Origin: Tridacna crocea
Lineage: Eukaryota; Mollusca; Bivalvia; Cardiida; Cardiidae
Assembly: GCA_943736015.1 (NCBI GenBank)
Contig: OX031062.1
Coordinates: forward strand, 60,562,962-60,626,961
Direction of reading: 5' to 3'
Length of the DNA: 64,000 nt
Shown: positions 1 through 64,000 of the stretch, piece after piece
Position numbering within the stretch: position 1 is the first letter of the stretch
Layout of the letters: each line of letters opens with the position of its first letter
The notes under the pieces: generated by a model
Databases searched by the model: none
What the model was told of the DNA's origin: nothing
The model's input: the letters and a program-made list of their open reading frames with translations, nothing else
Made by a program: the position numbers and the translations under genes

Positions 1-59
1 CTGAATTTGAAACATTTGTTGACCACAAATGCAAAATGGGTATAAATAAATTTTATGGT

Positions 60-195
60 ACTGGTATGGTAGAAATATTGTTGGAAAAGGAGAAAATGTT
101 GCTTACCAGCATTTTCTCCTTCACCCACAATGTTTTCAAAAACTTTTTCTGTAAAGGGTCATCAAAACTTTGGATTGTATGGTAAAAGATTGTGA
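60..195 (+). mobile_element. F1, right part
   Basis: Hairpin core at about 72-133 with the B arm to its right (GGTAAAAG end). The A arm is missing. Confidence 0.7.
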
Positions 196-511
196 TATTT
201 ACATAAGACAATTTCCTTTCCCTAGATACCAGTAGTAACTAGAATCACTTCTGTTTAGATTACTTCAGGGAGATTAAGTTTCCTTTCTATAAATAACAAA
301 TTAAAAATTACCAGTTTTGTTTTTTGATAGATTCCTCAGATGCTAATTGGATTAAGCAGAAGTGTCAGCTCGTATTACAGCCGATATCATGTATTGGGGG
401 TAAGTGTATTTTTAGTATGTGTGCAGTTTTCATAGCATGCAGTGTTCTATTGATGCAGCTTAAACCTGATGATGCACAAGTACAATTTTGTGTATCCATT
501 GAGAAGACAGG

Positions 512-743
512 TTTAACCTTTTACCTGTTATGCCAATAGGAGACTCTTCCATTTCAGCAGCAAATAAAGATATGATGTCAAAAACATGGACAAATGAGGA
601 TACAAATAACTGATTGAGTGGAAAACATTGTGGGAAAAGGAGAAAATGCTGGTTACCAGCATTTTCTCCTTTTTCTACAATGTTTTCTACAGACTTCTTT
701 CATTGGGGTCATCAAAAGTAGGGATTGTGTGGTAATGGGTTAA
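512..743 (+). mobile_element. F1, diverged A arm
   Basis: TTAA at both ends. The core (about 618-690) and B arm are good, while the A arm is hardly recognisable. Confidence 0.7.
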
Positions 744-929
744 TAAACAACAAAATTTTAGACTAGACAAAATTGAAAAACATTTGCAGATAACAAAATA
801 TGTGGCTTAAATGAAAATTTCTGTATCTGGTAGGTTACCAGCATTTTCTCTTTTTCCCCAATTTTTTTTATTTCAAAAGCTTTTTGTTTCATGGTTGTTA
901 CAATTCGGCATTGAGTGGTAAAGGGTTTA
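744..929 (+). mobile_element. F1, old copy abutting the previous one
   Basis: The A arm starts directly after the TTAA at 740-743. One stem arm is lost, leaving only GGTTACCAGCATTTTCTC. Confidence 0.65.
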
Positions 930-1324
930 AGCACTCATTAATGGATAATGGGTTAATCAGGCTGTTAATTTCCTTTGTCTTTATCACAGGAGGCCAGACC
1001 ACACTTATTACCTACAATGTATGCTAGACTATATCTACTGAAGGCAGTGTATCAAGTTATGTGTAATGGTTTAAGACTGATGGGAATTACGCCATTGTCA
1101 CAGCTCTAATGTTATATTTTTGTAAATATTGTACTTGTAAGGTCTACTGAAATATATAAGGTATGTTCCAAATTGTGTTTAATTTCATATTTGTATCCCT
1201 GCAAAAGGGAACATTGCTGTAGCCAGCCAGCCAGTCTATCTTATCCTTCTGTGGGCATGCTCACATGTAAAACTTGTCGTATTAGGAGATGACACATAAA
1301 AAGTAGTACACATGATGCAAGTTA

Positions 1325-1440
1325 CCTCTGAGAGGTTAGAGTAGATTGTGGCTACCACCATTTTATCCTTATCTCACAATGCTTTCATAAACTGTCTTTC
1401 TTGGAGTTGGTTAAACATGTGCTTGTTTGGAAAAAGGTAA
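1325..1440 (+). mobile_element. F1 fragment, very diverged
   Basis: One stem arm and a trace of the B arm. Confidence 0.4.
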
Positions 1441-1673
1441 ACCAGAGAAACTGCCAGAAATGAAGGTAGCAAGAACAGCAGAACTTGATAAAGTCTTATA
1501 CTAAATAAGCATGTTTATAGATTCTTGACAGTTGACAAAAAATTAAAACAAATTTTATGGTATGAATATGCATGTAAAGAATAGAATAATTGAGGAACAC
1601 TCATATTGCAAAGGCTGTTTATAGTGGTAAACAGTTTATCTAGTACACCAAAAGGGTTCACTAAATAAATCCC

Positions 1674-1876
1674 CTAATCACTGGTTTCTATCAGTTCTTC
1701 CTGAGCTCTTTGTAGAAGATCTGAATTGTACATTTTATACACTTCAGGTAAGTCAAACATGGAAAATGTGAATGATCTGGTGAAAGATAAATCAGATAAC
1801 TTGTCATCATCTGTCCGATTCTTTTTGCTTCCAATGTTGAGTTGATCAGCTGTAATTGTCTTCATCAAAGTTTTAC
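1674..1876 (-). CDS. Exon 15, terminal (residues 1060-1126 and stop)
   Basis: Acceptor acctcag|GTA, phase 1. The frame runs to TGA at 1674 and ends LLQRAQEELIETSD. No canonical AATAAA is obvious immediately downstream on this strand. Confidence 0.82.
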
Positions 1877-4800
1877 CTGAGGTATCACAAAAAAAATGTA
1901 ATTAATATACAGTGATAGCTATGGCAACAACAATGAAAAAAATTAGCTTTTGTCTGTGAAAAGGGGGCTTAATGCATCTGCCAAAACTATAGACCCAGGT
2001 TGGCCAGTGCAGTGCATGCAAGCTGACCTGGGCCAAAACGTTTTGCCGTCAGTCAATTATATGAATGTAAAAGGACCATTCAAGATTTTGGTGCTGTTAG
2101 TATTTATGGATCTACTATTATGTGATGGCTTGCTTGGTATGATGTGTAACAGAGATACATTAACTCAATACCAAATGACAAAATTTTAGGCTTGCCCAAA
2201 TCGAAAGCATTTGCAGATGACAAAAAAAAAGTGACTAAAATTTTGAAAATTGTTTTGTGAAGGGTAGAAAACATTGTGGGAAAAGGAGAAAATGCTGGTT
2301 ACCAGCATTTTCTCCTTTTCCCACAATGTTTTCTAAAGGCTTCTTTCACAGGAGCGTCAAAAGTAGGGATTGTGTGGTAATGGGTTAAGCCCCTGTTTGC
2401 CAAAACAGACTTCAAATATTGTAACACTTTTTATCCGCCTCCTGAAACGAATCAGGAGCAGGCAAATTTTAACCATTCTTGTAAAATAAAGATAATGATC
2501 ATGAATTAATCCATTACCACACGATCTCTACTTTTGATGACCCTGAAAAAGAAGCCTTCAGAAAACATTGTGGGAAAAGGAGAAAATGCTGGTAAGTTGG
2601 TAACCAGCATTTTCTCCTTTTCCGATGATGTTTTCTATCCTTTCACAAAACAAATTTCAAATTTTCAGTCCCTTTTATTTTGTCGTCTGCAAATGATATC
2701 ATTTTGGACAAGCCTAAAACTTTATCGTTACGTAATGAGTTAATGTTAACTAATAGATAAATTTGAAATAATGATAAAAGAAAGAAGAAACTGCTGATTA
2801 AAAACAATTTTCTGAATTTCTAAAAAGATTCATCCCTTTATCACACAATGACGACTTTTAACACCCCTGAAAGAGAAGGCTTTTGAAAATGCTGGTTACC
2901 AAAGGCTTGCTCAATAACATTTTCCCTAGACTCGTTTAATAAAATTTTATCTCAAAAGCCAACTCTTGTCAGATGCTATATATCTTCAATGTTTTCTCCT
3001 GTGTCATTTGTAACAGTTTCTGGTAAATCTAGTATTGATCTAGATATGATCTGTACAATAATGGGTGAACACATACATAGCATTTTAGAGTATTTAAACA
3101 TTAACCCTTTACCCAGTAAGGCATTTCTATGGTATCTCTAATTGACCCTAAGTAACAGCAAGGATGAAGCTGTTTCTTACTTGAATATGACACCTTTTGA
3201 TAGCATAGAAAACATTGTGACAAAAGGTGAAATTGCTCATCACGAGCAATTTCACCTTTTGCCTCAATGTTTTCCAAAAGCTCCTACAGGCAATGCGGAT
3301 CAATGAGTATCTATGGAGTAAAGGGTTAACTTGTTCACAAACTTGCATTAGATGACCTTGAAAACACCAATCTTAAATTCTTAATGACTGAACCCTTTAC
3401 TCCATAAATACTCATTTCTACGCATTGCTTGGAGGAGCCTTTGGAAAACATTGTGGCAAAATGTGAAATTGCTCGTCATGAGCAATTTCACCTTTTGTCA
3501 CCATGTTTTCTATGCCATCAAAAAGTGTCGTACACACACAAAAAATGGCTTCATCTTTGCTGTTAGTTTTAGGGTCAGTTAGAGATACCATAGAAATGCC
3601 TTATTGGGTAAAGGGTTAAGAGTAAATACATATCAAAGATGTGGTACTAGAGTGAATTGCTCTTTACAAATGGACATCTACACCAATGCCCACACTGGTT
3701 ACTCTCTTACAAACATGAAAGTTTGCAACAGATGCATAGCTGAAATACAAACTGCATCTGGCGGGATTCGAACCCATGTAGCACCATCACCATAACCAAT
3801 GAGCTAAAGAGATATAGATCTCACTAATGCAGTTTTTGGTATTGTATTTAACCCTTTACTCCATAGATACTCATTTCTACCCATTGCTTGTAGGAGCCTT
3901 TGGAAAACATTGTGACAGAAAGTGAAATTGCTCGTGACAAGCAATTTCACCTTGTGTCACAATGTTTTCCATGCTATCAAAAGGTTTCATTTACGCATAA
4001 GAAACGGCTTCATCCTTGCTGTTATTTAGGGTCAATTAGAGATACCATAGAAATGCTGTATGGTGTAAAGGGTTAAATAGGAACGAAGCCATGCATGAAG
4101 GAGTGGTCTCCTGTAACACATCCCATCTGAAAGTCATCATTTATTGATGACTCGAAGCCTTTTTAGGCAGAAAGACCGTTTTTAGACAACAAATGGGATA
4201 AATGGCTCAGTGGCAATCCCAGACCAGCCCCCATTTTACGAACATGGTCGATAACAAAGAAACAAATTAGCAAATGCAGAAATAAAGGGACCAGGAAAGA
4301 TTCTAACCAAGAATGCCCAGACAAAAGCCCAACACCATAACCACTGAGCTAAAGGTAATTCTCCCTAACGCAGTTGTTCGGTATTGTATTTAAACTGGGA
4401 TGAAGCCATGCATGAAGGAGTGGTCTCCTTATTGCTATTTGGGCTTTAATGTCACACAGACAAGTGTAGATAGTCTTCAAAAACCTCAGTAAAACTTACC
4501 GGCTGTATGTGGACCAATGTGTGAATTAATTCTCAATCTGTCCTTGTACAGGGATTTCAAATAATAGTCTCGAAACAGTAGGTTTGGATCTTCTTGATCT
4601 ATCTTGTTTCGTTTTTTGACAGAAAATGGCTGTGTTTTTGGTCTTGTAAACTGTTGTTTCATGGTAGCTACCTTTCCTGGAACTGGGGTCTGTAAACACA
4701 GACAAAAGAGTTACAAACTGTAGGTGAAATTGACAAATTTTCTGCGCATATGTTTTTTTTACAAGTCAAAGATATAGAGAAGAAATAACAAGTTTATACA

Positions 4801-7800
4801 AAATTATGTTCTATTTGGCCATTGGAAAGTTTTTATTGCCAGGTTGGAAAAGTACATCAACAGTATATTTCAACTAAAGACTAGCAAATTTTAATACACA
4901 ACTCTAAATAGTAAAATGTGTATTATGGTCTTAAACTTGAAGAATACAACATAGATTTTATGTGAAAATATTGCAGTAAAAGGAGATGATATTTAATGCC
5001 TTGAAGAAGACCTCTATTGAAAACATTTTACACATATGAACCGTTTACAAAACAATCCCTGGTTTTTACAAACAAGAGCAAGCAGCCTTCTGAAAACATT
5101 GTAGGACAAGGAAAAAATGCTGGTAACCAGCAATTTCTCCTTTTCCCACAATGTTTTGAACTCTTCTAAATTCAAGTTTCAATTTTTCAGTAATGTTTAT
5201 TTTGTTGTCTGCAAATGCTTTCAATATTTCTTATCATCTGCAAATGCTTTCAATTTGGACAAGTGTGAAATTTGATCGTTTGATAAAAGTTAAAGGAGAA
5301 ATTGTATGTCATAAGTGACTTCTTCACCTGCAACAATGTATGAGTATTTGAACCTTTTACCACACAGTCTCCATTTTTATGACATAGAAGAAGAATGCTT
5401 TTAACTTTTTACCAAACGGCAAAATTTTGGAGTCATCCAAATCGAAAGCATTTGCAGACGGCAAAATAAAAGTGACTGAAAATTTGAAATTTGTTCTGTG
5501 AAGAGAAAACAACATTGTGGTAAAAGGAGAAAATGCTGGTTCTCCTTTTCCCACAGTGTTTTCTAAAGGCTTCTTTCTCAGGGTCATCAAAAGTAGGGAT
5601 AGTGTGGTAATGGGTTAAAAAAATTGTGGGAGAAAGAGAAAACGCTGGTAAGCTGTATTTTCCTCTTTTCTAATAATGCTTTGTACCATATCAAAAACAG
5701 AAAACATTCTTTGAGCTAAAGTCAGTTTCTCCTTTCTAATTGAGTTTGATTTACTTTAGGACAAAATTCTTTCATTTAATATGGAGTAAATCCCTTGTCA
5801 AAGTGATATGGAGTATGAATGACCTGAAGGTAAAAGGCTATATATAACATTGTGGGAAAAGGCAAAAATACTGTTAACCAACATTTTCTCCTTTTTCCAC
5901 AATTTTTACAACCCTATGAAAGTCAAATTACATCACTTTAGACACATTTGATTCGTCGTCTGCTAATTAACCCATTACCACACAATCCCTACTTTTGACG
6001 CCCCTGTGATAGAAGCCTTTTGAAAACCCTGTGGGAAAAGGAGAAAATGCTGGAAACCAGCATTTTCTCCTTTTCCCACAGTGTTTTCTACCCTTCCCAG
6101 AACAAATTTCAAATTTTCAGTCACATTTATTTTGTCGTCTGCAAATGCTTTCAATTTGGACCAGTCTAAATTTTTCTTGTGTGGTAATGGGTTAACAAGA
6201 TTATGTCTAAAATTCTGTCAATTGGTAAAGTGCCCAGGAGCTCAACAATGAACACTGTACCTGAGGTTTCTTTCTTCCTTTAAATGGGGTAGCCTTTCGA
6301 AAAGTTTGTGGAACAATCTGTGATTTTAAAGTTTTGGACAGTGCTGGAAGATTTACAGTTGTCTTAGATTTTGGTTGGTCTTTCAAAGCTGCAATAAATG
6401 ATAACAAATAAATTACTTTCAGAACTTTCAACCTTCTACCAACCAATCTTGTTTAACTCTTTACCAAACAACAAAAATTTAGACTGGTCCAAATCGAAAG
6501 CTCTTGCAGTTCACCCGGTGTCCGTCGTGCTTCGTGAACAATTCTTTAAACATCATCTCCTCCTCAACTGTTGGACCAAACATGGCTGGAATGTTCCTTG
6601 GGAGGTGTTCTTTAAAATTAGTTCACAGAATTTGATTGCATCAAAAACTCTGGTTGCCATGGCAACCAAATGGAATTTTCTAAGAATTCTTTAAAAATAT
6701 CTTCTGAAACTGCTGGTCAGATTTTGAAATAATTTCACAGAGATGTTCCTTGGGTGACCCTCTTCAAAAAATGTTCGCAAAATTTTGATCCATCGACAAA
6801 CAAGTAGACAAGGAATTATTGATTCATGAAGTTATATGGTAAGCAGAAAAACATAATGAATTAACCCTTTTCCGAACAATCTTGGGTTTTAACGACCTTG
6901 ACGGACAGTCCTTTTGAAAACATTGAGTGAAAACAAGCAAATGCTGGTAACCAGCATTTTCTCCTTTTCCCACAATGTTTTTCACTTTGTCAAAGCAAGA
7001 TCGCACCTTTTGAGCTGCTTGAAAATTGTTGGCTGTAAATGCTTTCAATTTGGACAAGGCTCAAATTCTGTCGTTTGGTAGAGGGTGGAAACCAAAACAT
7101 TACCAAATATTAGAAAGTGTAGTTTTAACTGCAAGAATTTTGAAACATGCTCACTGATATAAGCCATTGTACAAAATTATGAGGAAGATAGTACATTTTC
7201 AAAGGCACTGAAACTCATTTACATTTCTTGTCCTGTTTTGTTGCACTGGTTAAATCAATATTATCACATTTGACGGGTCGAAGTGAGGCCTTGAATGTGT
7301 AGTCAAGGTCATTCTGCCCCACCTCCACTACCCCAATTTTCCTGGCTGTCTTTTTGCCTGGTCTAATCTCATCCCATGACGATGTGACCGCCCGAGAAAG
7401 TAGCCTTGTGCTTTGGATTGGTGTGTTAGAGTTCCTGTAAAAAGTAACGGTAAACGCTTCCCTGACATCAACATTTATTAGGTTTACTGGTTAACTCTTT
7501 ACCACACAATCCCTACTTTAGACAACTCTAAGAAAGAAGCCTTCAGAAAACATTGTGGGAAAAGGAGAAAATGCTGGTAACCAGCATTTTCTCCTTTTCC
7601 CACAATGTTTTCTACTCTTCACAAAACATTTCAAAGTTGCAGTCACTTTTATTTTGCCATCTGCAAATGCTTTCGATTTGGACAAGCCTAAAATTTTTAA
7701 TCAGATAAATGTTTTGCACCACCCTCAAAATTATTCTAGTTATAACATAGCAACAGCTAATGTATTAATATATTCCCTATATACCAGTATAAGGCTAATG

Positions 7801-10800
7801 TTCTGAAGTGGTTAACCCAAGGACATTCCAGGGAAAAAAAAACAAACTCTTCTAGTGAGGATCAAATCCTGAGCTTCAAGGTTGCAAATCTCACACCTTT
7901 ACCATTAAGCCTACATGTATATGGCCCTGCATTAACTCTTTACCACAGAATCCCTACTTTTAACAACTCTGAGAGAGAAGCCTTTTGAAAACACTGGAGG
8001 AAAAGGAGAAAATGCTGCCTGCATTTCCCTTAGTGTTTTCAAGAACCTTTTTCAAGAAAAATCTATAGCCTCATTAAAACACTAGATCATTTTATTAATT
8101 GTTCACACATTACCATACAATCACAAATTTTAACAACCCTACGAAAGAAAGCTTCTGAAAATATTGTGTGAAAAAGAAAAAATACTGGTAACTCTTTGAT
8201 AGACAAATTTCTTGCCTTTAGTAACAAAATGCCATCTGCACATGTTTTTGTAGGCTGAAATATTGTTGTCAGCTAGAATACAGCTTTCCCCACAACATTT
8301 TCTACTCTGTGAAAGACAATTTTCATGGTTTTAGTAACATTCACTTTGTGATCTGCAAAGGCTTTGTATCTGACGAGACTAAAGTATTGTCTGGTAGAGT
8401 AAAGCACAGAACTAGCCCGTATTCACCAACCATTCTTGAGAATATTCTTTGTCTTATTCTCCAAGGTTTTTTTAAATTTGTAAGTAACACAACTTCTGAT
8501 TGGCTAAACCATTTGGTTTAGCCAATCAGAAGTTGTGTTACTTACAAGGATGGTTTAGCCAATCAGAAGTTATGTTACTAACAAGGATGGTTTAGCCAAT
8601 CAGAAGTTGTGTTACTTACAATGTAGAAAATTCTGGAGAATGGTTGGTGAATATGGACCCAGGACTTCAGTGAACCTTTTTATACAAACCTTGGAGATTG
8701 CTGTATAGATCTGGACCATTTTCTGAAGATACTGGGGTTAGGCATAGTGTTTTTCGTGACCACAACCTTTTGAACAGATTTTTCACAACTTTTTGATGAC
8801 TGATTTGAAGCATCTGTATTGGTGGCATTAGTTCTTTCCCTAAAGATTGTAACATACAAAAACTTAAGGTAAGGTTTATCATTTGGTAGATTTACCATTT
8901 GGTAGTAACATAGTGAACTATACACAGACTATTTTCTTTTTACGTACAATCATAATAGTATAAAATCTATTAAAGAACGAGAAAATAAAAAGAAAATACA
9001 TAACCAGATAAAAGAACATCAGTGAGATGAGAAAAAAAAATCAGATGCATCAGAAGAGAAAAAGAAGTCTAGATAAATACATATGGAACTGAGGCAGTAT
9101 GCCTATTTATGTATAGAACACAAGAGATACCCAACACAATGAAACAGTACGTGAATTATCCAGTATCAAACACTGCTGTATTTGAAGGCCTTTTTTCATG
9201 CATATGCTGCTGAAAAAATTAAATGAAACTTTTGGAGCCAATTGTAAAATCCAATGATGTTATTTCAAATGCATTTTCAAATAAAAATATGTCCTTATTA
9301 GACAGTATAGATCCAAGATCAGGCTGCATGTTGTGTGCAATCTGATCTTGATCTACACTGTCCGTAAAAGGTCAGTGAGTCATGATTGGCAGGATAAGGG
9401 TTAAAACTTGGCCAAATTGTTTTAACCCATTACCAAACGACAAAATCTTTGGCTTGTCCAAATTGAAAGCATTTGCAAATGACAAAATAAAACTGATTGA
9501 AAATTTGAAATTTGTTTTGTAAAGGATAGGAAACATTGTGGGAAAAGGAGAAAATGCTGGTAACCAGCATTTTCTCCTTTTCCACGATGTTTTCTAAAGG
9601 CTTCTTTCTCGGGGCGTCAAAAGTAAGGATTGTGTGGTAATGGGTTAATGCTGACTTGTTATTGCTTTTAAAAGATTCAACTAATGTCACAGAGAGAGGT
9701 TAGATATATAAGCACTTGAAACCTGCCTTGCTGTTGAGCTAGCTTTTACAGCGATGCGGTTTGGTGTATTAAATTTCTCTCCTTGATAGTTAAGCAATGT
9801 GCATTGGGTTAATGCCTGGATGGGTGACCAAATCGTTGCACATTACATTTGGTGGCAGCGGTGGGATAATGACAACTGCCGGACTGGAGTTGCCTTACCC
9901 ATGTATATTCCCTTAGTGTTTCTGTATATAAGTGCTTGTACATGTATATAGGTCTCAGGGTTGAGACTTCCCAAAGGGGGGAGTAATGTCACGGAGAGAG
10001 GTTAGATATACATGTATAAGTACTTGAAACCTGCCTTGCTGTTGAGCTAGCTTTTACAGCAATGTAGTTCGGTGTATTTCTCTCCATGATAGTTAAGCAA
10101 CATGCATTGTGTTAGTGCCTGGATGGGTGACCAGGTCGTTGCATGTTACACTAGTCTTTGTTTGGTCAAAGTCTGCAATAAAATTCACTTTATTTAAAAA
10201 TACTGCTAAGAACTACAGTACAGTAAAACCTTGATTGATTTATCTTATATGGAAAGTTACATTTTGCAGACAGGTTCGAACAGGATCAAAATGCACAAAA
10301 ACTGTCTGATCTTGCTCTGGGTTCATTCTGTGGTGTTCAGAAACACCCACCACTGGCTATTAGAATTATATATATATATATATACATGGATAAACTGAAA
10401 AACCTCCACACACAACTTTGTCTTATTTATAGCAGCAATGGTCATCAGGATTTTATGATACGGATAAATTGAATACTGTAACCTTCACATGTAGCCTGAG
10501 AGTCTGAACTTAACCCTTTACCAAACAATCCCTGATTTTTATGACCCTGAGATAGAAGCCTTTTGAAAACATTGTGGGAAAAGGAGAAAATGCTGGTAAC
10601 CAGCATTTTGTTTTTTTCCCACAATGTTTTCTGTTCTTCCTATAACAGATTTCAATATATGAGATACATTCATTTTGTTCTCTGCAAGTGCTTTCACTTT
10701 AGACCTGTCTAAAAGTTCGTCATTTGGTAAAGGGTTAAAACCAGCATTTACTGGCCCAATAGCCTCTAAGGAGGTCTTTATAGCTCACCTGGAGCACCTT

Positions 10801-13800
10801 TTGTTCATATGAGTGAAGAATGCTGAGAAACTTACCCAATTCGACTTTGATCTTTCTTTATACTGGCTTCATTGTCTGTCAGCTTTTGGTTATCACCCTC
10901 TGACTGGTGACTGGTTCTTGAACTTTTCTTGCTGTAGTGTGATGTAATGTCTGGTAACCATTCCTTCTGATCCATGGCCTCTAGTTGTTCTGAATGTCAT
11001 CAAATTATAATATTTAATCATTAGGAAATTACAATCATTTATATTGAAAGCTTGTGTAGACAACAAATCAGCAGTAGATTAAATTATTACCAGACAACAA
11101 CATTTTATTGGTTACCAGCATTTTCTCTTTTTTCCATGTTGTTTTCAAAAGACTTCTTTGATTGGGGTGTAAAAGTCAGGATTGTGTGGTAAAGGGATAG
11201 TAGACAGAAAGCTTGCAAAGGTACAACGGGTGCTGCACGGCAAAACTGCAATTGTGGTAAACAACAAATAGAGTACCAATTCATTTTATGTGTGGAGAAT
11301 TACCTGAAGAAGTATTTTTTATTTTCATCATCATTTCCTGTTTATACTGTTCAATGAAGGGCCAATAACATAGATCATCGCTGCTTTTCCCTTTCACTGG
11401 TTTGTGTATGGTAACACTGTTCAACTTATCATAACAATGTCCCGAACCAGAATTTGAACTCAGATGCACGCTATCTCTATCTGAGGATGTCCATTCTGAA
11501 CTGGCATCATAATTTGTGACAGTTGGTTCAGTAGATGTCAGTGCCAGTTCCAGTTGGTTAACGTGTAGCTCTTGCCGACGTCTTCTGTTACGCAGTCGGG
11601 GAGTGTCACGAGTGCCATTTGCTGTTAAAGGTGGAGGACCGTGAATTTGGTCATACATACGATCAAGAATCCTTTCAACTTGGAAATTTCTGGAATGTTA
11701 AGATCAGAGTTAATGATTATGTCTTATTCATATTAACAACTAACAAAAAGAAAGTTATTTAACCCATTACCACACAATCCCTACTTTTGACGCCCCTGAG
11801 AAAGAAGCCTATAGAAAACATTGTGGGAAAAGGAGAAAATGCCGGTAACCATCATTTTCTCCTTTTCCCACAAAGTTTTCAACTCTATCACTGAACAGTT
11901 GAAGCATTTGAGCCACTCTGAAATTGTTGTTTGCAAATCCTTTCAATTTGGACTGGGCTAAAATTTTGTCGTCTCGTAAAGGGTAAAACTTTTACCAAAT
12001 GACAAAATTGTACTTGTCTGACTTGACAGCATTTGCAGATTACAAGTTAAATCTGCTTCGAATGTTGGAATATGTTTCAGAAAGGGTTAAAATATTATGG
12101 GGCAAGGAAAAAATGCCGATTTCATATAGTAATATTTTCTCTTTTTCCAAGTTTTTTTCAAAGCCTTTTTTCTCTAGATATTTAACAGGTTACCATATTA
12201 CGTTTTAACAACCCTACTGAAAAAGTTTTTTTTGCAAACATTGTGTGAACAGAAGAAAATATTGGTAACCAGCTTTTTCTCCTTTTTGAAGCAAGCAAAG
12301 TCCTCATTTGGATCATGACTTGACAGTCTTAGTTTTTTAACAGTTTACCACACGACAAAATTCTTGGCTTTTCCATATTAACCCATTACCACACAATCCC
12401 TGCTTTTGATGCCCCTGAGAAAGAAGCCTTTAGAAAACAATGTGGAAAAAGGAGAAAATGCTGGTAACCAGCATTTTTTCCTTTTCCCACAATGTTTTCT
12501 ACCCTACACAAAACATCTTTCAAATTTTCATTCACTTTTACTTTGTAGTCTGCAAATGCTTTTGATTTGGACAATCCTAAAATTGTGTCCTTTAGTAAAG
12601 AGTTAGAAGACGTCATTATGTGGTAAAAGGTTAACCCTCTTTTTAACTCTTTACCAAACGACGAGGTTTTAAGTTTGTCCAAATGGAAAGCATTTGTAGA
12701 CGACAAAAATGAAAGTGACTGAAAATTTGACTTTTGTTTTGTGAAGGGTAGAAAACATTGTAGGAAAAGGAGAAAATGCTGGTTACCAGCATTTTCTACT
12801 TTTCCAACGATGTTTTCTAAAGGCTTCTTTCTCAGGGGCGTCAAAAGTAGGGATTGTGTGGTAATGGGTTAAAAGGTTTCACAAACAGAAGTCATTAAAA
12901 GGTTTCACAAACAGAAGTCATTAAAAGTCTTCATTATGTGGTAAGAGATTAACCTTCTTTTTACAGAGCATAACTTCTTTCAAATCTGACATATAACTAA
13001 AAACTTTTATGCCTTACTGTTCATCATTTTCATCTGAACTTTCTGTTTCTAAATGACAAACCACTCGATGATGTTCACCATCTTTCTTCTTCTTCCTTCG
13101 GTGACGCTTCCATCGATTATATCGCTTGTCTACCACAGCCTCGAAACAAAATTCCTGACCCGTAGGGAGGGAGGGGTCTGGAACTGTAACATTATAATAC
13201 ATAATCCATTTGTTTACATGTTCCTATTAGTTGTAACATTCATTTATCACATAACCTCCCTTATTTTCAGTGTAATATACCCACTACGAATTTTATCTTA
13301 TACATAGTTGATATCACATTTGTGTGACATCATTTTGTACGCATTTCATACCAGTGAGTGGGTCTCATGGAAAATACCGCAGGTGTATTTATGAATGTTT
13401 TTGCATCATGTGATCCATATTTTGTGAAAAATTGTTATGTGATAAAAAGAATCTGACATTTGTGGGCATTTGAGATAAGATTTTATTAAACTTGTCGAGA
13501 AAAATTTTATTAACCCTTTCCCAAACGGCAAATTCTGGACCAGACCGAATTGAAAGCACTTTGCAGATGACAAATTAACAGTTGCTAAAAAGATTATTTT
13601 TCTATATGATAAGGTAGAAAACATTGTGGGAAAAGGAGAAAATGCTGCTTACCAGCATTTTCTCCTTTTCCCACAATGTTTTCAAAAGGCTTCTATTCCT
13701 GACCCGTAAAAACCAGGGATCGTTTGGGAAAGGGTTAAGCTCGTCAAAGGCTTGCTTAATAACATTTCCCTAGACTTGTTTAATAAAATCTTATCTCAAA

Positions 13801-16800
13801 AGCCCACTCATGTCAGATCCTATATTTCTGTAATTGAGACAAAGGAAAAAATATGTGGGCCATACCCTGGCAAAAAGGGGGCGTAGTGCATCTAAATGAT
13901 AACAATAAACATTTAACTCTTTACCACACATTCCCACCTTTTAACGACCCAGAGAAAGAAGCCTTTTGAAAACATTGTGGGAAAAGGAGAAAATGCTGGT
14001 AACCAGCATTTTCTCCTTTTCCCACAATGTTTTCTACCCTTCCAACTTCAAATTTCAATTCTTCAGCCATATTTATTTTGTCATCGGCAAATGCTTTCAA
14101 TCTGGACCAGTCTAAAATTTTGTTGTGTGGTAAAGAGTGAATGTGGATCCATAAAATTCTTTTTGTCTGACAACCAATTGAATCATGGGGTAGAGTTGTC
14201 CAAAGACATACTGAAAAAAAAATTGACTAATAGTGAAAAGTTCCATCTAAGGTCAGCCTGCGAATACTGTGCAAGCTGACCTGGCTCGATACTTTACTCA
14301 GGTGCATTAACCCATTACCACACAATCCCTACTTTTGACGCCCCTGAGAAGGAAGCCTTTGGAAAACACTGTGGGAAAAGGAGAAAATGCTGGTAACCAG
14401 CATTTTCTCGTTTTCCCACAGTCTTTTCTACCCTTCCCAGAACGAATTTCAATTTTTCATTTACCTTTATTTTGTTGTCTGTAAATGCTTTCAATTTAGA
14501 CCAGTCTAAAATTTTCTTGTGTGGTAAAAGAGTTAAGCCCTTTTATTACAGAGTATGGCTTATATCATGAAGGAGGAGGAAAAGTCATTTTTGAATGAGA
14601 TGGGCATATTAAGCCTTTCCCAAACGATCCCTGGTTTTTACGGGTCTTGAAAAGTAGCCTTTTGAAAACATTGTGGGAAAAGGAGAAAATGCTGGTAACC
14701 AGCATTTTCTCCTTTTCCCACAATGTTTTCTACCCTATCATAGACAGAAATCACCTTTTCAGCAACAGTTAAATTGTCGTCTGCAAATGCTTTCCATTTG
14801 GTCTAGTCCAAAAGTTTGTCGTTTGGGAAAGGGTTAAGATATGGGTCAATTATTACTTGACTAGAAGATTCTGGGATTTTTTTCCCCTTTTTCCTTTTCA
14901 AAAAACTGGACAGAGGTTGAAAGCCACACTTGTGCAGAACAGGGTTAGGTATATAGAGGATAATCAACTGGTTATTTTTGATATGAAAAATATCTCACAA
15001 GGATGTGTTGTTAGGCGTTGAAAAAACGAGTGCGCAGCACAAGTTTTTTTTAATGCCTTACAATGCATCCAAGTGGGATATTTTTCATATCAAAAATAAC
15101 CAGCTGATTATTTTATTTATTTATATACCTTATTAACATTATTATTTTTGATTTTTTGTTTGAAAGTCAAAATCAATACTTAGGATAGAGAGAAGAAATC
15201 AAGGACACAGTGTGGATGAATACATAATTTAAAAGAACAAAACGAGATTGAGTAAAGTAGTTTGATTATCTAGTTGAAAACAAAGAGGTTACAATTAACA
15301 CTATCTATAAGTGCTCAATGAAAAAAAAAAGTAGTTCCTAAATTATGGCAGGAAGTGAAAGTGGAAGTTGATATTGTCACTAGTGATGATATCAAAATTT
15401 ATTACATTGGGAAATTCCAGGAGTTGACTACTAGGTGTATAATAAATAGAGGATAATCAACTGGTTAATTTTGATATGAAAAATATCTGACGAGGATGCG
15501 TTATTAGGCGTTGAAAAAACGGGTGCACAGCACAATTTTTTTAAACGCCTTTCGACGCATCCGGGTGAGATATTTTTCATATCAAAAATAACTAGTTGAT
15601 TATCCTCTATTCATTATATACCTTATCAACATTATTATTTTCAATTTTTCATTTCAAAGTCAAAAAAAAAAACTGTAGTCGAAAAAAAAAGTAGTTCCTA
15701 AATTACGGCAGGAAGTGAAAGTGTAAGTTGATATCGTTACTAGTGATGAATATTTTCAGTCACTTGTTATAAACATTTCAGGACTTAATGAGAGATAATT
15801 TGTCATAAATCACTAGACTGAGGGTTGTACCATTACTTCTGAATGATTCAAATAAAGATAACTTGCTTGTATTGCACAATGTAGTTCGCTGCAACCTCTT
15901 CAAGAATGTATCGCAGCCATCATCTACATCTGAGGTGTCATTGAGCACAGGCTCATTTCCAGCACCAAAGGAAATCCATTGGTTACACTGGGTGTCAGGT
16001 GATGGTACAATAACTGTTTTTGTTGTTGTACTGCAAAAAGAAGGCATCCAAATAAAACTTTTCAGTATGTAAGTCTACTCAACTTTTAGATGAACCCAAG
16101 TTTCTACACAATTTAAGAAATCTGTACTGTAGTAAGTATTGCAAGTACATGTACCTTCAGCAACTGTTGATTTCCAACTCATATATTACAGCAAAAGTTC
16201 TTCTATCTGACTATATCAAAGATAATCTCTCATAATATGTAAAATTCTCCATCCTGGTGGCACTTTCAACAGAAAGGCCATAAGCACACACTATAGAATA
16301 AGATGAACATGTAACTTGCTATCAAATTTCTAAACAAGGACAAATGGTTTAAGTTCTTTTCTGCAAAACATTTCAAATGCGTTTTGTCTGTAAAGATAAC
16401 TCCTAACAACTTTCTGTGTTACATGTCCCTCCCTTTAAATTTTTACATTGCAGAAGCTTCAAGTGTATAACCCTTTACTCCATAGATACTCATTTCTATG
16501 CATTGCTTGCAGGAGCCTTTGGAAAACATTGTGGCAAAAGGTGAAATTGATCGTGACGAGCAATTTCACCTTTTGCCAAAATGTTTTCTACACTATCAAA
16601 AGGTGTCATATACACATAAGAAACAGCTTCATCCTTACTGTTATTTATGGTCAATTAGAGATACCATAGAAATGCTTTATGGGGTATAGGGTTAAAATAA
16701 CCCCAGATTTCAAAATTTGACATTACTTTAATTCTTGACCACACAATACCGACTTTTAACGACCCTGAGAAAAAAGCCTTTTGAAAACACTGTGAGAAAA

Positions 16801-50014: not shown

Positions 50015-50246
50015 TTAACCCTTTCCCAAAAAATCTCTGGTTTTTACAGGGCTAGAATAGTAGCCTTTTGAAAACATTGTGGGAAAACTAGAAAATGCTG
50101 GTAACCAGCATTTTCTCCTTTTCCCACAATGTTTTCTACCCTATCATAATAATACAGAAATCATCTTTTCAGCAAGAGTTGAATTGTCGTCTGCAAATGC
50201 TTTCAATTTGGTCTAGTCCAAAAGTTTGTCGTTGGGGAAAGGGTTG
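50015..50246 (-). mobile_element. F1-D, complete
   Basis: TTAA 50015-50018. The right end is TTGA at 50243-50246, shared with the next copy. Confidence 0.9.
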
Positions 50247-50471
50247 ACCCTTTACCAAACAACAAAATTTAGACTTGTGCAAATTGAAAGCATTTGCTGA
50301 CGACAACATAAAAGTAACTAAAGAAATTAAATTTATTTCCACTAGGATAGAAAACATTGTGGGAAAAGGAGAAAATGCTGGTTACCAGCATTTTCTCCTT
50401 TTCCCACAATATTTTCCAAAGGCTTCTTTCTCAGGGGCATCAAAAGTAGGGATTGTGTTGTAATGGGTTAA
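50243..50471 (+). mobile_element. F1, complete
   Basis: Right TTAA 50468-50471. The stem is perfect down to CACAATATTTTC. Confidence 0.9.
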
Positions 50472-50531: not shown

Positions 50532-50762
50532 TTAACACATTACCGCACAATCCCTACTTTTGATGCCCATAAGAAAGAAGCCTTTTGAAAAAACTATGGG
50601 AAAAGGAAAAAAATGCTGGTAACCAGCATTTTCTCCTTTTCCCACAGTGTTTTCTACCCTTCCCAGGACAAATTTCTATTTTTCAGTCACCTTTTTTTTT
50701 ATCATCTGCAAATGCTTTCAATTTGGACCAGTCTAAAATTTACTCGTGTGGTAAAGAGTTAA
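50532..50762 (-). mobile_element. F1, complete
   Basis: TTAA 50532-50535 and 50759-50762. Confidence 0.9.
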
Positions 50763-50874: not shown

Positions 50875-51101
50875 TTAACTCATTACCAAACAACAATATT
50901 TTAGGCTTGTCCGAATGGAAAGCATTTTCAGATGACAAAATAAAAGTGATAAAAGTTTGAAAGTTGTTTTGTGAAGCCTAGAAAACATTTTTGGAAAAGG
51001 AAAAATTCTGGTTACCAGCAATTTCTCCTTTTCCCACAATGTTTTCTAAAGGACTCTTTCCCTGGCTTGTCAAAAGTAGGGACTGGGTGGTAATGGGTTA
51101 A
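50875..51101 (+). mobile_element. F1, complete
   Basis: TTAA 50875-50878 and 51098-51101. The left stem arm is partly lost (GGAAAAATTCTGG). Confidence 0.88.
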
Positions 51102-51265: not shown

Positions 51266-51490
51266 TCATTTTCCCAAACAAGCAGTGGTTTTTACGTGTC
51301 AGCAGTACAAGTCTTTCGAAAACACTGTGGGAAAAGGAGAAATTGCTCATAATGAGCAATTTCTCCTTTTCTCACAGTATTTTCCACCCTTTAGGAGAAC
51401 TTTCTACCATATTCATCAAATTTAGAATTGTTGTCTGCAAACTCTGCCAGTTTGGAAGAGTCTAAAATTTGTCGTTTGGGAAAGGGTTAA
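51266..51490 (-). mobile_element. F1-C, complete
   Basis: The right TTAA is at 51487-51490. Tip GCTCATAATGAGC is palindromic and differs on both sides from the 27.98-kb F1-C. Confidence 0.9.
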
Positions 51491-51587: not shown

Positions 51588-52007
51588 GTCTTCACCAAAC
51601 AACATTTTTTATGTACAGGACCAAACTCCCAGCATTTGCAGATGACAAATTAAATGCTGCTAAATCGATGAGTTCTGTTTTTGATGATGTGGAAAACATT
51701 AACCCATTACCACACAATCCCTACTTTTGACGCCCCTGAGAAAGAAGCCTTTTGAAAACACTATGGGAAAAGGAGAAAATGCTGGTTACCAGCATTTTCT
51801 CCTTTTCCCATAGTGTTTTCTTCCCTTCCCAGAACAAATTTCTATTCTTTAGTCACCTTTCTTTTGTTGTCTGCAAATGCTTTCAATTTGGACCAGTCTA
51901 AAATTTTCTCGTGTGGTAAAGAGTTAAGGGAAGAAGGAAAGCATTTCTCGTTATGGCACAGTTTTTTCAAACACCTTCCATTTCAGGTTGTGTGGTACAT
52001 GTTAAAA
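51588..52007 (+). mobile_element. F1, outer copy of a nest
   Basis: The A arm runs to GTGGAAAACATTAA. It resumes after 51927 as GGGAAGAAGGAAAGCATTTC with a decayed B arm ending GTGTGGTACATGTTAA. Confidence 0.75.
51699..51927 (-). mobile_element. F1, inner copy of the nest
   Basis: TTAA 51699-51702 and 51924-51927. Stem bases are CACTATGGG and CCCATAGTG, a matched double change. Confidence 0.92.
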
Positions 52008-53479: not shown

Positions 53480-53708
53480 TTAACTCATTACCACACAATC
53501 CCTACTTTTGATGACCCTGAGAAAGAGGCTTGTAGAAAACATTGTGGGAAAAGGAGAAAATGCTGGTAACCAGCATTTTCTCCTTTTCCCACAATGTTTT
53601 CTACCCTTCACATACCATATTTTAAATTTTCAGTCACATTTATTTTGTCGTCTGCAAATGCTTTCAATTTGGACTAGCCTAAAATATTGTCGTTTGGTAA
53701 CGAGTTAA
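53480..53708 (-). mobile_element. F1, complete
   Basis: TTAA 53480-53483 and 53705-53708. Stem perfect. Confidence 0.92.
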
Positions 53709-53928: not shown

Positions 53929-54157
53929 TTAACCCTTTACTCCATAGATACTCATTTCTACGCATTGCTTGTAGGAGCCTTTGCAAAACATTGTGGCAAA
54001 AGGTGAAATTGCTCGTGATGAGCAGTTTCACCTTTTGTCACAGTGTTTTCTATGCTGTCGAAAGGTGTCATATACACATAAGAAACAGCTTCATCCTTGA
54101 TGTTATTTAGGGTCCATTAGAGATACCATAGAAATGTCTTATGGGGTAAAGGGTTAA
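53929..54157 (+). mobile_element. F1-B, complete
   Basis: TTAA 53929-53932 and 54154-54157, the latter shared with the next copy. Confidence 0.92.
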
Positions 54158-54373
54158 CCTAAGGAAAAATGTTTTGACTCGACCAAATTGAAAGCATTTG
54201 CAGATGACTTGCTGAATTTGACTCAAAACATTGACATTTCCTTTTGGAAGGGTAGAAAACATTGTGGAAAAAGGAAAAATGCTGGTCACCAGCATTTTTT
54301 TTGTTTTTTCACAGTGTTTTCAAAAGGTTTTTTTAGGGTCGTTGAAAGTCTGCATGGTGTGGTAAAGGGTTAA
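54154..54373 (+). mobile_element. F1, complete
   Basis: TTAA 54154-54157 and 54370-54373. Tip GCTGGTCACCAGC, self-complementary but shifted from the usual GGTWACC. Confidence 0.88.
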
Positions 54374-54533: not shown

Positions 54534-54761
54534 GAACTCTTTACCAGACAACAAAATTTTAGCCTTGTCCAAATTGAAAGCATTTGCAGATGACAATTTC
54601 AGTGTGGCTCAAATGGTGTTATCTTTCTTTTATAGAGTAGAAAACATTGTAAGAAATGGAGAAAATGCCGGTTACCAGCATTTTCTGCTTTTTCCACAAT
54701 GTTTTCTAAAGGCTTTTTTCCCAGGGTCGTTAAAAATCGTCATTGTGTGGTAAAGGGTTAA
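54534..54761 (+). mobile_element. F1, complete
   Basis: The left end is TGAA. Right TTAA is at 54758-54761. Stem tip GCCGGTTACCAGC. Confidence 0.9.
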
Positions 54762-54776: not shown

Positions 54777-55004
54777 CTTACCCCTTTATCACATAATCCT
54801 GAGTTTTAACGATCGTAAGAAAAGGACATTTGGAAACATTGTGTGAAAAGGAGAAAATGCTGGTCACCAGCATTTTCTCCTTTTGCCACAATGTTTTTGC
54901 CATGTCAAAGATACTTTTCTTAATTTGTGCCACGCTCAGTTCCTTGTCTGCAGATGCTTTCAATTTGAACTCGTCTGCAGAATTTTTGTTTCGTAAAGAG
55001 TAAC
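54777..55004 (-). mobile_element. F1, complete
   Basis: CCTTTATCACATAATCC to GTAAAGAGTAA. Tip GCTGGTCACCAGC, as in the 54154 copy. A 17-bp F1 end scrap follows. Confidence 0.88.
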
Positions 55005-57808: not shown

Positions 57809-58024
57809 TTAACCCATTACCACACAATCCCTACTTTTGATGACCTGTACAGTGGAGCCTTTAAAGAACATTGTTGGAAAAGGAGAAAATGTTACCAGCA
57901 TTTTCTCCTTTTCCCCACAATGCTCTATACTGTTTACAAAACAATTTTCAAGGCTTTATTTTGTCATCTGCAAATGCTTTCGATTTGGACAAGCCTGAAA
58001 TATTGCCGTTTGGTGATGAGTTGA
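57809..58024 (-). mobile_element. F1, complete, short stem
   Basis: TTAA 57809-57812. The left stem tip lost GCTGG (AAAATGTTACCAGC). Right end GATGAGTTGA. Confidence 0.85.
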
Positions 58025-60781: not shown

Positions 60782-61807
60782 TCACAGAGGAGTATCAAAG
60801 ACAGCAGAATAATCAACATCAAATGGTGGACCCGAGGGAAATAGGTTCATTACCCAAGTTGAGGTTCAAAAACCGACACAACACGAGAAAAGGGACCCGA
60901 ATTATGAGGTAAGCAGAGGCGCGACAAAGAAAAGACCCCTTTTCTGGTGTCCCGGCTGTTTCAAGTTTACTGAGGCGTAGAAAAACGTTTGCAGCACCGA
61001 AAAAGGTACCATGTAGAAAATTTGAATATTACATGCAGAAAACACACAATTTCAAAACGTTTGATGAGGCCTAAAGTTTCTTAGAACCGTTCCAGACTTC
61101 ATGGCGAGGTTTTGAAGTAGAAAAATTAACCCTAAATAGCTTTAATAATCAGTTAAACTTGAGGTCATCCTTTTGTGGTGGCGCGTGAAATTTGTCCAAA
61201 AATGCACCAGTGTTCCGTGCAATGGCGGCCATGTCATGACAACGGGTACCCGATAAAAAGGTACCCCGATGCGCGACAGGTAAAATTCCCCTTTTATGGT
61301 GCTGCGAAAAGTTTCGCCCATATCCGGCCATTTTGAAGGAAAACTTTTGCAGCACGAAAAGAGGGACCGCATAGAAAAATCTCAAATTGCAAATACACAA
61401 GATGCCAATTTTGTATTTTTATGCCACAGAAATGTAATTGGAATTGCTCTCGATTGAACAGCAAGTTTTTCATGTCCGGAAAAAGATCCAAAGTGGTCGA
61501 AATAATCAGTCAAACTTTCGGTCCCCTTTTCTCATGGCGCGTTTTTTGTGCTCCAAATCAAGAAAATTTTTGTGAAAGCTATTCGGCCCCCGGCAAGTCG
61601 TACCCGAACGTAAAATCAACATTGACTTTGAAAAGATAGAGGGTTTTATCATTTTACTTTTATATTTTTGGATGTTACACGCGACTGACTGACCTTTTGC
61701 GGACAATTTAGATCAAAGTCTGATCTTTGATCTTCATTTTCCCATAAGGAAATGCCCTCTCCTGAAAGATTCATTAGAACAGCAAAATTTTAGTTTTTAC
61801 TATAGGC

Positions 61808-62026
61808 TTAACCCTTTACCAAAAAATCCCTGGTTTTTACGGCCCTAATATAGAAGCCTTTTGAAAACAATGTGAGAAAAGAAGAAAATGCTGGTAACAG
61901 CATTTTCTCCTTTTCCCACAATGTTTTCTACCTTGCTGTAAACATTTTAATTCTTTATTAATGTGTATTTTGTTGTCTGCGAGTGCTTTCTTTTTAGATC
62001 AATCTAAAGTTTTGTCGTTTCAGTTA
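61808..62026 (-). mobile_element. F1, nearly complete
   Basis: TTAA 61808-61811. Hairpin GATAACAG-type with one base lost at the tip. The right end has decayed (GTCGTTTCAGTTA). Confidence 0.85.
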
Positions 62027-62042
62027 CTTAGCAGGATGAAGT

Positions 62043-62139
62043 TTAACCCATTACCACACAATCCCTACTTTTGATGATCCTTAGAAAGAAGCCGTTAGAA
62101 AACATTGTGGGAAAAGGAGAAAATGTTGGTAACCAGCAG
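62043..62139 (-). mobile_element. F1, cut at the tip by array unit 4
   Basis: TTAA 62043-62046. The B arm and left stem reach GTTGGTAACCAGCA, and the array unit starts at the next base. Confidence 0.85.
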
Positions 62140-63183
62140 AGGAGTGTCAAAGACAGGAGAATAAACAACACCAAATGGTGGACCCGAGGGAAATAGGTTC
62201 ATTACCCAAGTTGAGGTTCAAAAACCGACACAACACGAGAAAAGGGACCCGAATTATGAGGTAAGCAGATGCGCGACAAAGAAAAGACCCCTTTTCTGGT
62301 GTCCCGGCTGTTTCAAGTTTACTGAGGCGTAGAAAAACTTTTGCAGCACCGAAAAAGGTACCATGTAGAAAATTTGAATATTACATGCAGAAAACACACA
62401 ATTTCAAAACGTTTGATGAGGCCTAAAGTTTCTTAGAACCGTTCCAGACTTCATGGCGAGGTTTTGAAGTAGAAAAATTAACCCTAAATAGCTTTAATAA
62501 TCAGTTAAACTTGAGGTCATCCTTTTGTGGTGGCGCGTGAAATTTGTCCAAAAATGCACCAGTGTTCCGTGCAATGGCGGCCATGTCATGACAACGGGTA
62601 CCCGATAAAAAGGTACCCCGATGCGCGACAGGTAAAATTCCCCTTTTATGGTGCTGCGAAAAGTTTAGCCGATATCCGGCCATTTTGAAGGAAAACTTTT
62701 GCAGCACGAAAAGAGGGACCACATAGAAAAATCTCAAATTGCAAATACACCAGATGCTAATTTGGTATTTTTATGCCACAGAAATATAGTTGCGATTGTT
62801 CTCCATTGTACAGCAAGTTTTTGATGTCCGGAAAAAGATCCAAAGTGGTCGAAATAATCAGTCAAACTTTCGGTCCCCTTTTCTCATGGCGCGTTTTTTG
62901 TGCTCCAAATCAAGAAAAATTTTTGTGAAAGCTGTTCGGCCCCTGTCAAGTCGTACCCGAACGTAAAATTAACACTGACTTTGAAAAGACAGAGGGTTTT
63001 ATCATTTTGTTTTTACATTTTTGGATGTTACACGCGACTTACTCACCTTTTGCGGACAATTTAGATCAAGATCAGACAACACAGAAGCTGAAGTCTGATC
63101 TTTGATCTACATTTTCCCATAAGGAAATCCCCCCGCTCGAAAGATTCATTTAGAACAGCAAAATTTTAGTTTTTACTTTCGGC

Positions 63184-63395
63184 TTAACCCGTTACCAATC
63201 AATCCCTTGTTTTTACGGTCCTAATATATAGAAGAATTTTGAAAACAATGTGGGAAAAGAAGAAAATGCCGGTAACCAATGTTTTCTATCCTGCTGTAAA
63301 CATTTTAATTCTTTAGTAACGTGTTATTTTGTTGTCTGCAAGTGCTTTCATTTTAGACCAATCTTAAGTTTTGTCGTTTCAGTTACTTAGCATTT
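63184..63395 (-). mobile_element. F1, tip lost
   Basis: TTAA 63184-63187. GAAAATGCCGGTAACCAA jumps to TGTTTTCTATCC. The right end matches that of the 61808 copy (GTCGTTTCAGTTACTTAGCA). Confidence 0.8.
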
Positions 63396-63710
63396 TCTCC
63401 TTTTCCCACAATGGTTTCTTCCTTTCCTCAAACAAATTTGAATTCTTTAGTCACATTTATTTTGTCGTCTGCAAATTCTTTCAATTGGACCAGTCTAAAA
63501 TTTTGTCGTTTGGTAGAGTTAATTAAATTCTTTATTGGTTACCAGCATTTTCTCCTTTTCCCACAATGTTTTCTGCCCTTCCTAAAACAAATTTGAATTC
63601 TTTAGTTACATTATAATGTCGTCTGCAAATGCCTGCAAATGCTTTCAATTTGGACCAGTCTAAAATTTTGTCGTTTGGTAAAGAGTTAATTAAATTCTTT
63701 ATTGGTTACA
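63390..63710 (-). repeat. Half-F1 unit in tandem
   Basis: The right stem arm plus A arm occurs twice (63391-63525 and 63540-63690). Both are followed by GTTAATTAAATTCTTTATTG and GTTAC, as if a half-element of ~155 bp was duplicated. Confidence 0.8.
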
Positions 63711-64000
63711 TATCACTGCAGCCAATGCCCTTTTTTCCCCAATGTTTTTGCCGTATCAGTACCAGATACCAGTCATATATGATGCGATGAATTACATTCC
63801 AGCCATTGGGTGACTTTCAGACGCCAAATATATCAATTTCCGACTTCTTACCATTGAATACTATTCCAGTGAAACTCCGAAAAATCATCTTCTTGTAGAC
63901 TTACCTTATGACGATCGGACCATGGGCATCCTGATCTTGATCTATGACGTCTGGGATAGATGTTGTTTCGCTGATAGTGCTAAATGATTTAACAATCATT
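63711..64000. other. Window end, nothing recognised
   Basis: A possible F1 scrap lies at 63728-63750 (CCAATGTTTTTGCCGTATCA). An E-like GATCTTGATCTATGACG lies near 63932. Confidence 0.4.

Follow-up and report, generated by a model that had tools for sequence, protein, structure and literature searches.

A TTAA-bounded hairpin element filling an estimated fifth of the Tridacna crocea genome very probably belongs with the piggyBac elements

The stretch of DNA analysed here, referred to as the window, comprises 64,000 nucleotides of the giant clam Tridacna crocea (NCBI GenBank assembly GCA_943736015.1, contig OX031062.1, positions 60,562,962 to 60,626,961 of the forward strand) and is densely populated by one short repeat, denoted as F1. 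F1 is a non-coding element of 229 bp that is bounded by TTAA and carries in its centre a hairpin of 65-70 nt with almost no loop. Using a pair of profiles, F1A and F1B, built from 39 copies in the window (34 F1A and five F1B), we found 113 non-redundant matches, of which 56 were at least 200 bp long, 36 were 100-199 bp and 21 were shorter (Table 1). These matches occupied 20,103 of the 64,000 bases (31.4%), and the reversed window gave no match. A preliminary description of the window, made from its letters alone, had put the share of the element at a quarter to a third, its full or nearly full copies at about 60 and its length at ~228 bp, all of which agrees with the profile search; its count of about 25 fragments was too low, as 57 matches were shorter than 200 bp.

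The distance from end to end was most commonly 229 bp (in 24 of 89 listed end pairs), and this uniform length is too short for the 349 positions of a transposase domain, so that F1 carries no transposase gene. Its ends read approximately TTAAC[C/T]C[A/T]TT[A/C]CC, and the end motif TTAACCCWTTACC, allowing up to two mismatches, was present at 68 left and 67 right ends in the window, compared with 0-3 ends in each of five mononucleotide shuffles of one strand. TTAA stood at both borders in 68 of 137 full-length matches and at one border or more in 121 of them, counted over all DNA examined and including overlapping and near-identical loci. Among the 45 near-perfect palindromes in the window with arms of at least 20, 39 had the F1 core and six did not, and in good copies of F1 the arms were 33-36 nt long with a single nucleotide between them. 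When one full copy (53480..53708) was folded as RNA, its energy of -91.3 kcal/mol was far below the shuffle mean of -45.9 (z = -11). The shared end motifs, the TTAA borders and the strong central hairpin, all of which had been pointed out in the preliminary description, are thus real properties of the element.

Table 1. Positions of F1 in the window; individual copies are the matches of at least 200 bp
Feature	Position	Strand	Basis
F1-holding region with 56 matches of at least 200 bp and 57 fragments (113 in total, non-redundant)	1..64000	.	profile search, reversed control 0
F1A copy	2160..2388	+	profile search
Central hairpin of the 2160..2388 copy; two arms of 35 nt with 100% complementarity, separated by 1 nt	2265..2335	.	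palindrome search
F1A copy	2506..2743	-	profile search
F1B copy	3101..3328	+	profile search
F1B copy	3390..3619	-	profile search
F1B copy; TTAA at insertion point in F1-free relatives (window 4326-4429, L041, L062)	3849..4076	-	profile search
F1A copy	5401..5618	+	profile search
F1A copy, end motifs exact on both sides	5967..6195	-	profile + end-motif search
F1A copy	6861..7087	-	profile search
F1A copy	7491..7697	-	profile search
F1A copy	9422..9648	+	profile search
F1A copy	10510..10738	-	profile search
F1A copy	11759..11986	-	profile search
F1A copy	12378..12605	-	profile search
F1A copy	12643..12872	+	profile search
F1A copy, TTTCCC-type ends	13510..13738	+	profile + end-motif search
F1A copy	13913..14141	-	profile search
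F1A copy; sole F1-free relative (L046, 77% identical) reads TAAC at junction	14307..14535	-	profile search
F1A copy, TTTCCC-type ends	14609..14837	-	profile + end-motif search
F1B copy	16468..16695	-	profile search
F1A copy; border TTAA common to it and 16953..17178 copy	16728..16956	-	profile search
F1A copy	16953..17178	-	profile search
F1A copy	23688..23888	+	profile search
F1A copy	24083..24311	+	profile search
F1A copy	27084..27310	+	profile search
F1A copy	27690..27917	+	profile search
F1C copy, three paired arm changes vs F1A	27981..28208	-	profile search
F1A copy	29056..29257	-	profile search
F1A copy	29891..30126	+	profile search
F1A copy	32989..33205	+	profile search
F1B copy	33754..33981	-	profile search
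F1A copy	34362..34588	-	profile search
F1A copy	34918..35163	+	profile search
F1A copy	35522..35727	+	profile search
F1A copy	36310..36536	+	profile search
F1A copy	39432..39659	+	profile search
F1A copy	39842..40068	-	profile search
F1A copy, diverged	42828..43044	+	profile search
F1A copy	45206..45433	+	profile search
F1A copy	45995..46218	+	profile search
F1A copy	46282..46512	+	profile search
F1A copy, abuts 47108..47336 copy at one TTAA	46911..47111	+	profile search
F1A copy	47108..47336	-	profile search
F1A copy, end motifs exact on both sides	49111..49339	+	profile + end-motif search
F1A copy	50015..50246	-	profile search
F1A copy	50245..50471	+	profile search
F1A copy	50532..50762	-	profile search
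F1A copy	50875..51101	+	profile search
F1C copy	51270..51490	-	profile search
F1A copy; hairpin 51754-51820, 33-nt arms, matched change in both arms (CACTATGGG / CCCATAGTG)	51699..51927	-	profile + palindrome search
F1A copy, the one folded as RNA (-91.3 kcal/mol, z -11)	53480..53708	-	profile search, folding
F1B copy	53930..54157	-	profile search
F1A copy, abuts 53930..54157 copy	54157..54373	+	profile search
F1A copy	54535..54761	+	profile search
F1A copy	54779..55002	-	profile search
F1A copy	57809..58023	-	profile search
F1A copy	61808..62020	-	profile search

The genome assembly comprises 1,048.8 Mb in 31 contigs, the 18 largest of which, judging by the lengths shown, hold nearly all of it. 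From each of these 18 contigs we sampled a single 4-kb stretch, at round coordinates that were not randomly chosen, and F1 covered 13,829 of the 72,000 bases (19.2%; 12.7-26.1% by bootstrap over stretches) in 76 matches, 41 of them at least 200 bp long. Two of the 18 stretches had no F1 at all, the reversed control gave none, and F1 is denser in the window (31%) than in the sample (19%). Genome-wide, the exact end pattern TTAACYCWTTMCC occurred 564,210 times, as against 574 for the reversed pattern; the CCC form TTAACCCTTTACC accounted for 133,483 of these matches, and CTC, which does not conform to the piggyBac motif CC[C/T]T or CCC, is likewise allowed by the pattern. The perfect 45-nt hairpin core was counted 88,271 times and the exact 22-nt arm 411,400 times, with reversed controls of 0 for both. 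When the number of F1 bases for each exact end was calibrated on the window and the sample, the total came to 186-229 Mb (17.7-21.9%), with ~1.1 million pieces and ~0.58 million copies that are 200 bp or longer. If the arms mutate independently, the arm and core counts correspond to ~480,000 hairpins with the main type of arm. By these estimates F1 makes up about a fifth of the 1.05-Gb genome, with ~0.6 million near-full copies. Human Alu, a retroposon-scale comparison, numbers about a million copies. We know of no single animal family of miniature inverted-repeat transposable elements (MITEs) of this size, although no search was aimed at that claim.

For the insertion points, we joined the two flanks of each of 68 F1 copies and compared the resulting sequences with all the DNA examined; five filled sites had relatives free of F1. 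A single TTAA was present in the empty site in three of the five, being read at the junction in 3/3, 8/9 and 2/2 relatives. Two of the five filled sites, L031 and L033, are located in members of a piggyBac family of 2,765 bp, the copies of which share 96-99.9% identity; F1 therefore moved once the spread of this family was under way. In 20 of the 156 pairs of neighbouring F1 copies the two meet at a single TTAA, and the ends of F1 themselves provide TTAA targets.

Matches to the piggyBac transposase domain PF13843 were present in at least 118 places in the genome. Among the 30 best of these loci, several full-length families start with TTAACCC (2,765 bp, with ends TTAACCCTTTATATAC; 2,883 bp; 2,693 bp; 2,606 bp; and possibly 3,661 bp), and these have just 8-11 bases in common with the ends of F1. 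The copies of the 2,765-bp family (L014-L019, L023; C3, C4, C10, C12, C18) are up to 99.9% identical and hold frames of up to 624 aa, which suggests that this family was probably recently active. Many broken transposase fragments of piggyBac type are also clustered at C13:4.48-4.61 Mb and C8:56.71-56.76 Mb.

Two further elements resemble F1 more closely. The first, denoted as P, is 6,376 bp long (L071 1766-8141) with identical 18-base ends TTAACTCTTTCCCACACA on both sides, and its left end agrees with the F1A end in 34 of the first 38 bases, a match that extends far past the terminal repeat. Past the first 13 bases this match scored 40, whereas the maximum among 200 shuffles was 22 and none reached it. 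At its start P carries a 35-bp subterminal repeat in four units, and F1A has only the first. A second copy of P with an internal deletion was found in L072 (96.2% identical over 4.28 kb, left end 71/72), and its right end was not found. The other element, family E, is 7,203 bp long and has seven copies, five near-identical and two older. Its left end starts with TTAACCCATTACC in six of the seven, its right end TTAACTCATTACCAC (terminus TTAACTCATTACC) was read in five of the six copies whose right end was located, that of one older copy not being found, and E and F1 agree over the 13-base ends. All five near-identical copies of E (L025-L029, L039) hold an F1-type palindrome, so this partner seems to carry its own MITE along as it spreads. 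Both P and E have an open transposase frame matching PF13843 (E-values of 1.1e-83 and 2.6e-88), and the two transposases are 80% identical. A related element of 4,255 bp in L073 has TTAACCCTATCCTCCAC ends, a subterminal repeat of its own and a transposase 57% identical to that of P. As for solved structures, the only relatives of these transposases found were piggyBat (9c0f) and 6x67/6x68, which is piggyBac according to PMC11707139; P aligned with 9c0f at an E-value of 2.7e-40, with three acidic motifs aligned in our reading.

The elements with F1-type ends encode piggyBac-type transposases. F1 itself begins with CCC or CTC, the former of which fits the piggyBac motif, CC[C/T]T or CCC, as given in PMC2872659. 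The preliminary description had called F1 piggyBac-like from its ends and proposed a search for an autonomous parent; since P and E encode piggyBac transposases and carry F1-type ends, F1 passes that parent test, and TTAA in the F1-free relatives of three sites supports the same call. Neither a general lack of TTAA borders nor a parent of another superfamily, either of which was to overturn the call, was encountered. We therefore regard F1 very probably as a non-autonomous piggyBac MITE that was moved into TTAA by piggyBac transposases acting in trans.

Several observations weigh against this assignment. No transposition was observed. At the insertion points, the ninth relative of the L031 site reads TAAT, the single weak relative (77%) of the fifth site reads TAAC, and all seven relatives of the L033 site read TTTA, so that the target there was TTAA only in that copy or was not TTAA. 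None of the autonomous elements examined has exactly the commonest F1 ends, P differing at 4 of 38 bases, and past the first 13 bases only F1A with P stands out among 24 end comparisons. The F1A match to the E left end beyond that point is weak (3/200 shuffles as good), and the other F1A end resembles P over ~15 bases with nothing beyond (84/200 shuffles as good). For F1B no parent was found, P and E being unconvincing (5/200 shuffles in the best comparison). The terminal TTAA is lost at the left of one E copy and at the right of another, and the Cys-rich C-terminal segment of P aligned weakly with that of piggyBat (9.0 bits, i-Evalue 4.3).

Two other classes were considered for F1. Kolobok elements, to which the T2-MITEs of Xenopus belong, target TTAA as well (PMC6004289), but their ends are described there as beginning with purines, AGGRR or RR, whereas those of F1 begin with CCC or CTC and the elements sharing them encode piggyBac transposases; the ends and insertion sites led us to reject this membership, to which we give next to no credence. 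Helitrons lack inverted termini and have a hairpin near the 3' end. A rolling-circle element, as the hairpin of F1 might suggest to an automatic classifier, is just as improbable and was likewise rejected, given that F1 has inverted termini, TTAA at its insertion points and its hairpin in the centre. What favours it is that one published annotation assigns 22.48% of T. crocea to rolling-circle elements (PMC11700175, Table 2), near the share of F1; the other reports 1.03% rolling-circle and 34.9% unknown DNA elements (PMC10858879). F1 may lie, at least in part, behind this strong disagreement, and it may help repeat annotation in giant clams. For T. maxima, the text of PMC11700175 gives 15.91% rolling-circle and 23.26% DNA elements, and its Table 2 gives 23.26% rolling-circle, 15.02% DNA and 15.91% short interspersed nuclear elements, so the values in that part of the text seem to be swapped.

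The hairpin was analysed in 225 copies that remained after leaving out overlapping or near-identical loci (L006, L008, L023, L025-L029, L034, L058); the cluster tests used the 138 of these that had at least 195 columns, and the pair counts the 166 in which both arms were present. Average-linkage clustering of the 138 near-full copies at 20% distance gave seven clusters of at least three copies (51, 12, 10, 9, 5, 4 and 3; 94 copies), and the consensus arm pairs were matched at 33/33 positions in five clusters and 32/33 in two. Five clusters whose flanks are 71-89% identical have the same arm sequence, the sole exception being a single site in one of the arms of the smallest cluster. Compared with the largest cluster, F1B (12 copies) differs at four paired and one unpaired arm sites with a flank identity of 0.41, and F1C (four copies) at three paired and no unpaired sites with a flank identity of 0.68. 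In tight clusters (cut 0.12; 43 of the 138 copies), divergence from the consensus was 2.9% in the arms, 4.7% in the ends (17 columns each) and 6.6% in the flanks, so that the arms diverge 2-3 times less than other internal sequence and less than the terminal inverted repeats (TIRs) too. At A/T sites outside CpG-like context, changes numbered 18/1,234 in the arms, 93/2,009 in the left flank, 40/785 in the right flank and 28/714 in the ends. The order of arms, ends and flanks holds in A/T, G/C and CpG-like sites, and at CpG-like sites the arm rate (44/960) is close to that of the ends (23/398). An internal region less diverged than the ends is also the pattern of the CMITEs of corals, to which we return below.

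Within single copies the picture is different from that among lineages. There were 734 one-sided arm changes, so single copies decay at each arm separately, and 88 of the 121 complementary double changes fall in five diagnostic columns. Outside these columns, the 166 copies held 72 double changes, compared with 40.9 expected from independent columns, 33 of them complementary and 39 not. Plain shuffling gave 18.8 complementary doubles, with 1/500 shuffles reaching 33, and shuffling among copies of like divergence gave 30.3-30.9, with 162-194/500 reaching it. As such, there is no clear sign of arm-to-arm correction within copies, the excess over a plain shuffle perhaps reflecting minor subfamilies, and most single copies decay arm by arm while lineages keep the palindrome. 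The constraint would then act on the copies able to multiply.

Considering these results, we propose, tentatively and with less assurance than the piggyBac assignment, that the palindromic core may be a cis-acting amplification module, which did not come from parental ends, is constrained above the termini recognised by transposase, underwent compensated evolution in founding copies and could have let F1 reach retroposon-like numbers. An origin of the palindrome in autonomous ends was rejected when the three arm types were compared with the 300-bp ends of P, E, the L073 element and a member of the 2,765-bp family, at least 20 of 300 shuffles being as good in each of the 24 comparisons. Every palindrome listed for the 30 transposase loci has an F1 or F1B core, and we therefore took these palindromes as F1 copies inserted in or near the transposase elements. 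Against the proposal, the 137 copies with up to eight arm changes held 16 complementary doubles outside the diagnostic columns, compared with a plain-shuffle mean of 7.3 (1/500), and the low divergence of the arms might also stem from gene conversion or a lower mutation rate instead of selection.

The hairpin could accordingly be carried along passively, its uniformity owed to gene conversion from copy to copy, or occasionally between the arms of a single copy, and be of no benefit for transposition. Donor copies abound genome-wide, the arms shared by five clusters with differing flanks would follow, and the 16 complementary doubles are what arm-to-arm copying would give, as would minor subfamilies; but F1B and F1C retain their own paired arm changes, and the excess in the 166 copies is gone when copies of like divergence are shuffled, so we consider this explanation rather unlikely. 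We find it more doubtful still that the hairpin acts as RNA, with read-through double-stranded RNA or microRNA-like precursors helping F1 to evade or exploit silencing. The strong RNA fold and the compensated changes would fit such a role, but compensation suits a DNA structure equally, and a scan of the window returned no Rfam family at gathering scores.

In the scheme we favour, that of a piggyBac MITE, F1 would have kept the TIRs and, at one end, one subterminal repeat unit of a parent piggyBac, and transposases of the P/E type supplied in trans would cut and paste it into TTAA. The central palindrome, unlike the tested autonomous ends, may help copies multiply, a step we hold with less confidence, and would stay constrained in the copies that found new lineages. 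In piggyBat, an extra (third) transposase site on one end is described as restricting movement (PMC11707139). F1 possibly owes its success to having one subterminal repeat where P has four, which may have removed a piggyBat-like inhibition. The same source describes a palindromic site in piggyBac bound by two Cys-rich domains, and a palindrome recognised likewise by piggyBat; no sequence match to the ends of the parents supports the F1 palindrome as such a site. It is a long-standing open question how small DNA elements without coding capacity become so extremely numerous by means of an enzyme that cuts and pastes, and F1, with plausible partners that have open transposase frames in the same genome and a non-terminal feature under apparent constraint, makes it testable.

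The window also holds other repeats. A near-perfect palindrome of 72-78 nt, different from F1 and with core GATTGGCTAAACCA, occurs at 8474-8551 and 31193-31264, one of the two overlapping a 37-bp tandem array at 8514-8621. Four more palindromes with arms of 22-37 nt lie at 17939-18003, 21808-21866, 27018-27068 and 48143-48217, those at 17939 and 27018 sharing a CGCAGGCT core, and these are possibly other hairpin elements. Tandem arrays were found at 49455-49770 (periods 30-104), 55223-55841 (145), 56302-56908 (165) and 28218-28679 (93 bp), the last matching the F1 profile weakly. An open frame of 361 codons at 44005-45090, with a sub-threshold match to the phosphatase-like PF22741 (19.2 bits, the cut-off being 27), is perhaps a gene exon.

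Among the papers listed in searches on piggyBac MITEs, hairpin MITEs and the transposable elements of bivalves and giant clams, none was seen to describe F1. The Angel elements of zebrafish are reportedly short, inverted-repeat and hairpin-capable, and a role of the hairpin in their amplification is said to have been proposed; by that account they can be set beside F1. The likeness to piggyBac and piggyBat (6x67, 9c0f; PMC11707139) lies in the transposase family and TTAA, the repeats behind the P terminus being candidate binding sites, whereas F1 differs in being non-coding, in its one subterminal unit compared with the four of P, and in a palindrome unlike the ends of its parents. T2-MITE/Kolobok elements of Xenopus are likewise described as long-lived, TTAA-targeting MITEs, and differ in superfamily and end motif (PMC6004289). 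Closest are the CMITEs of Acropora corals, piggyBac-type MITEs with TTAA and CCC ends and a 75-base internal region of unknown origin, which is more conserved than the TIRs, in their case between families (PMC2872659). One CMITE family is tied there to the piggyBac element AmiPB1 by its TIR and a weak adjacent similarity. CMITEs are ~100 bp long with ~1,600 copies in A. millepora, while F1 is 229 bp long and outnumbers them by a factor of some hundreds, and the main text of that report (PMC2872659) uses neither 'hairpin' nor 'secondary structure'. The statement in the preliminary description that no account of such an element was known is weakened to this extent, as piggyBac MITEs with an internal region more conserved than the TIRs were already known in corals. 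Taken all together, F1 repeats the CMITE pattern at a far larger scale and adds to it a palindrome with compensated changes.

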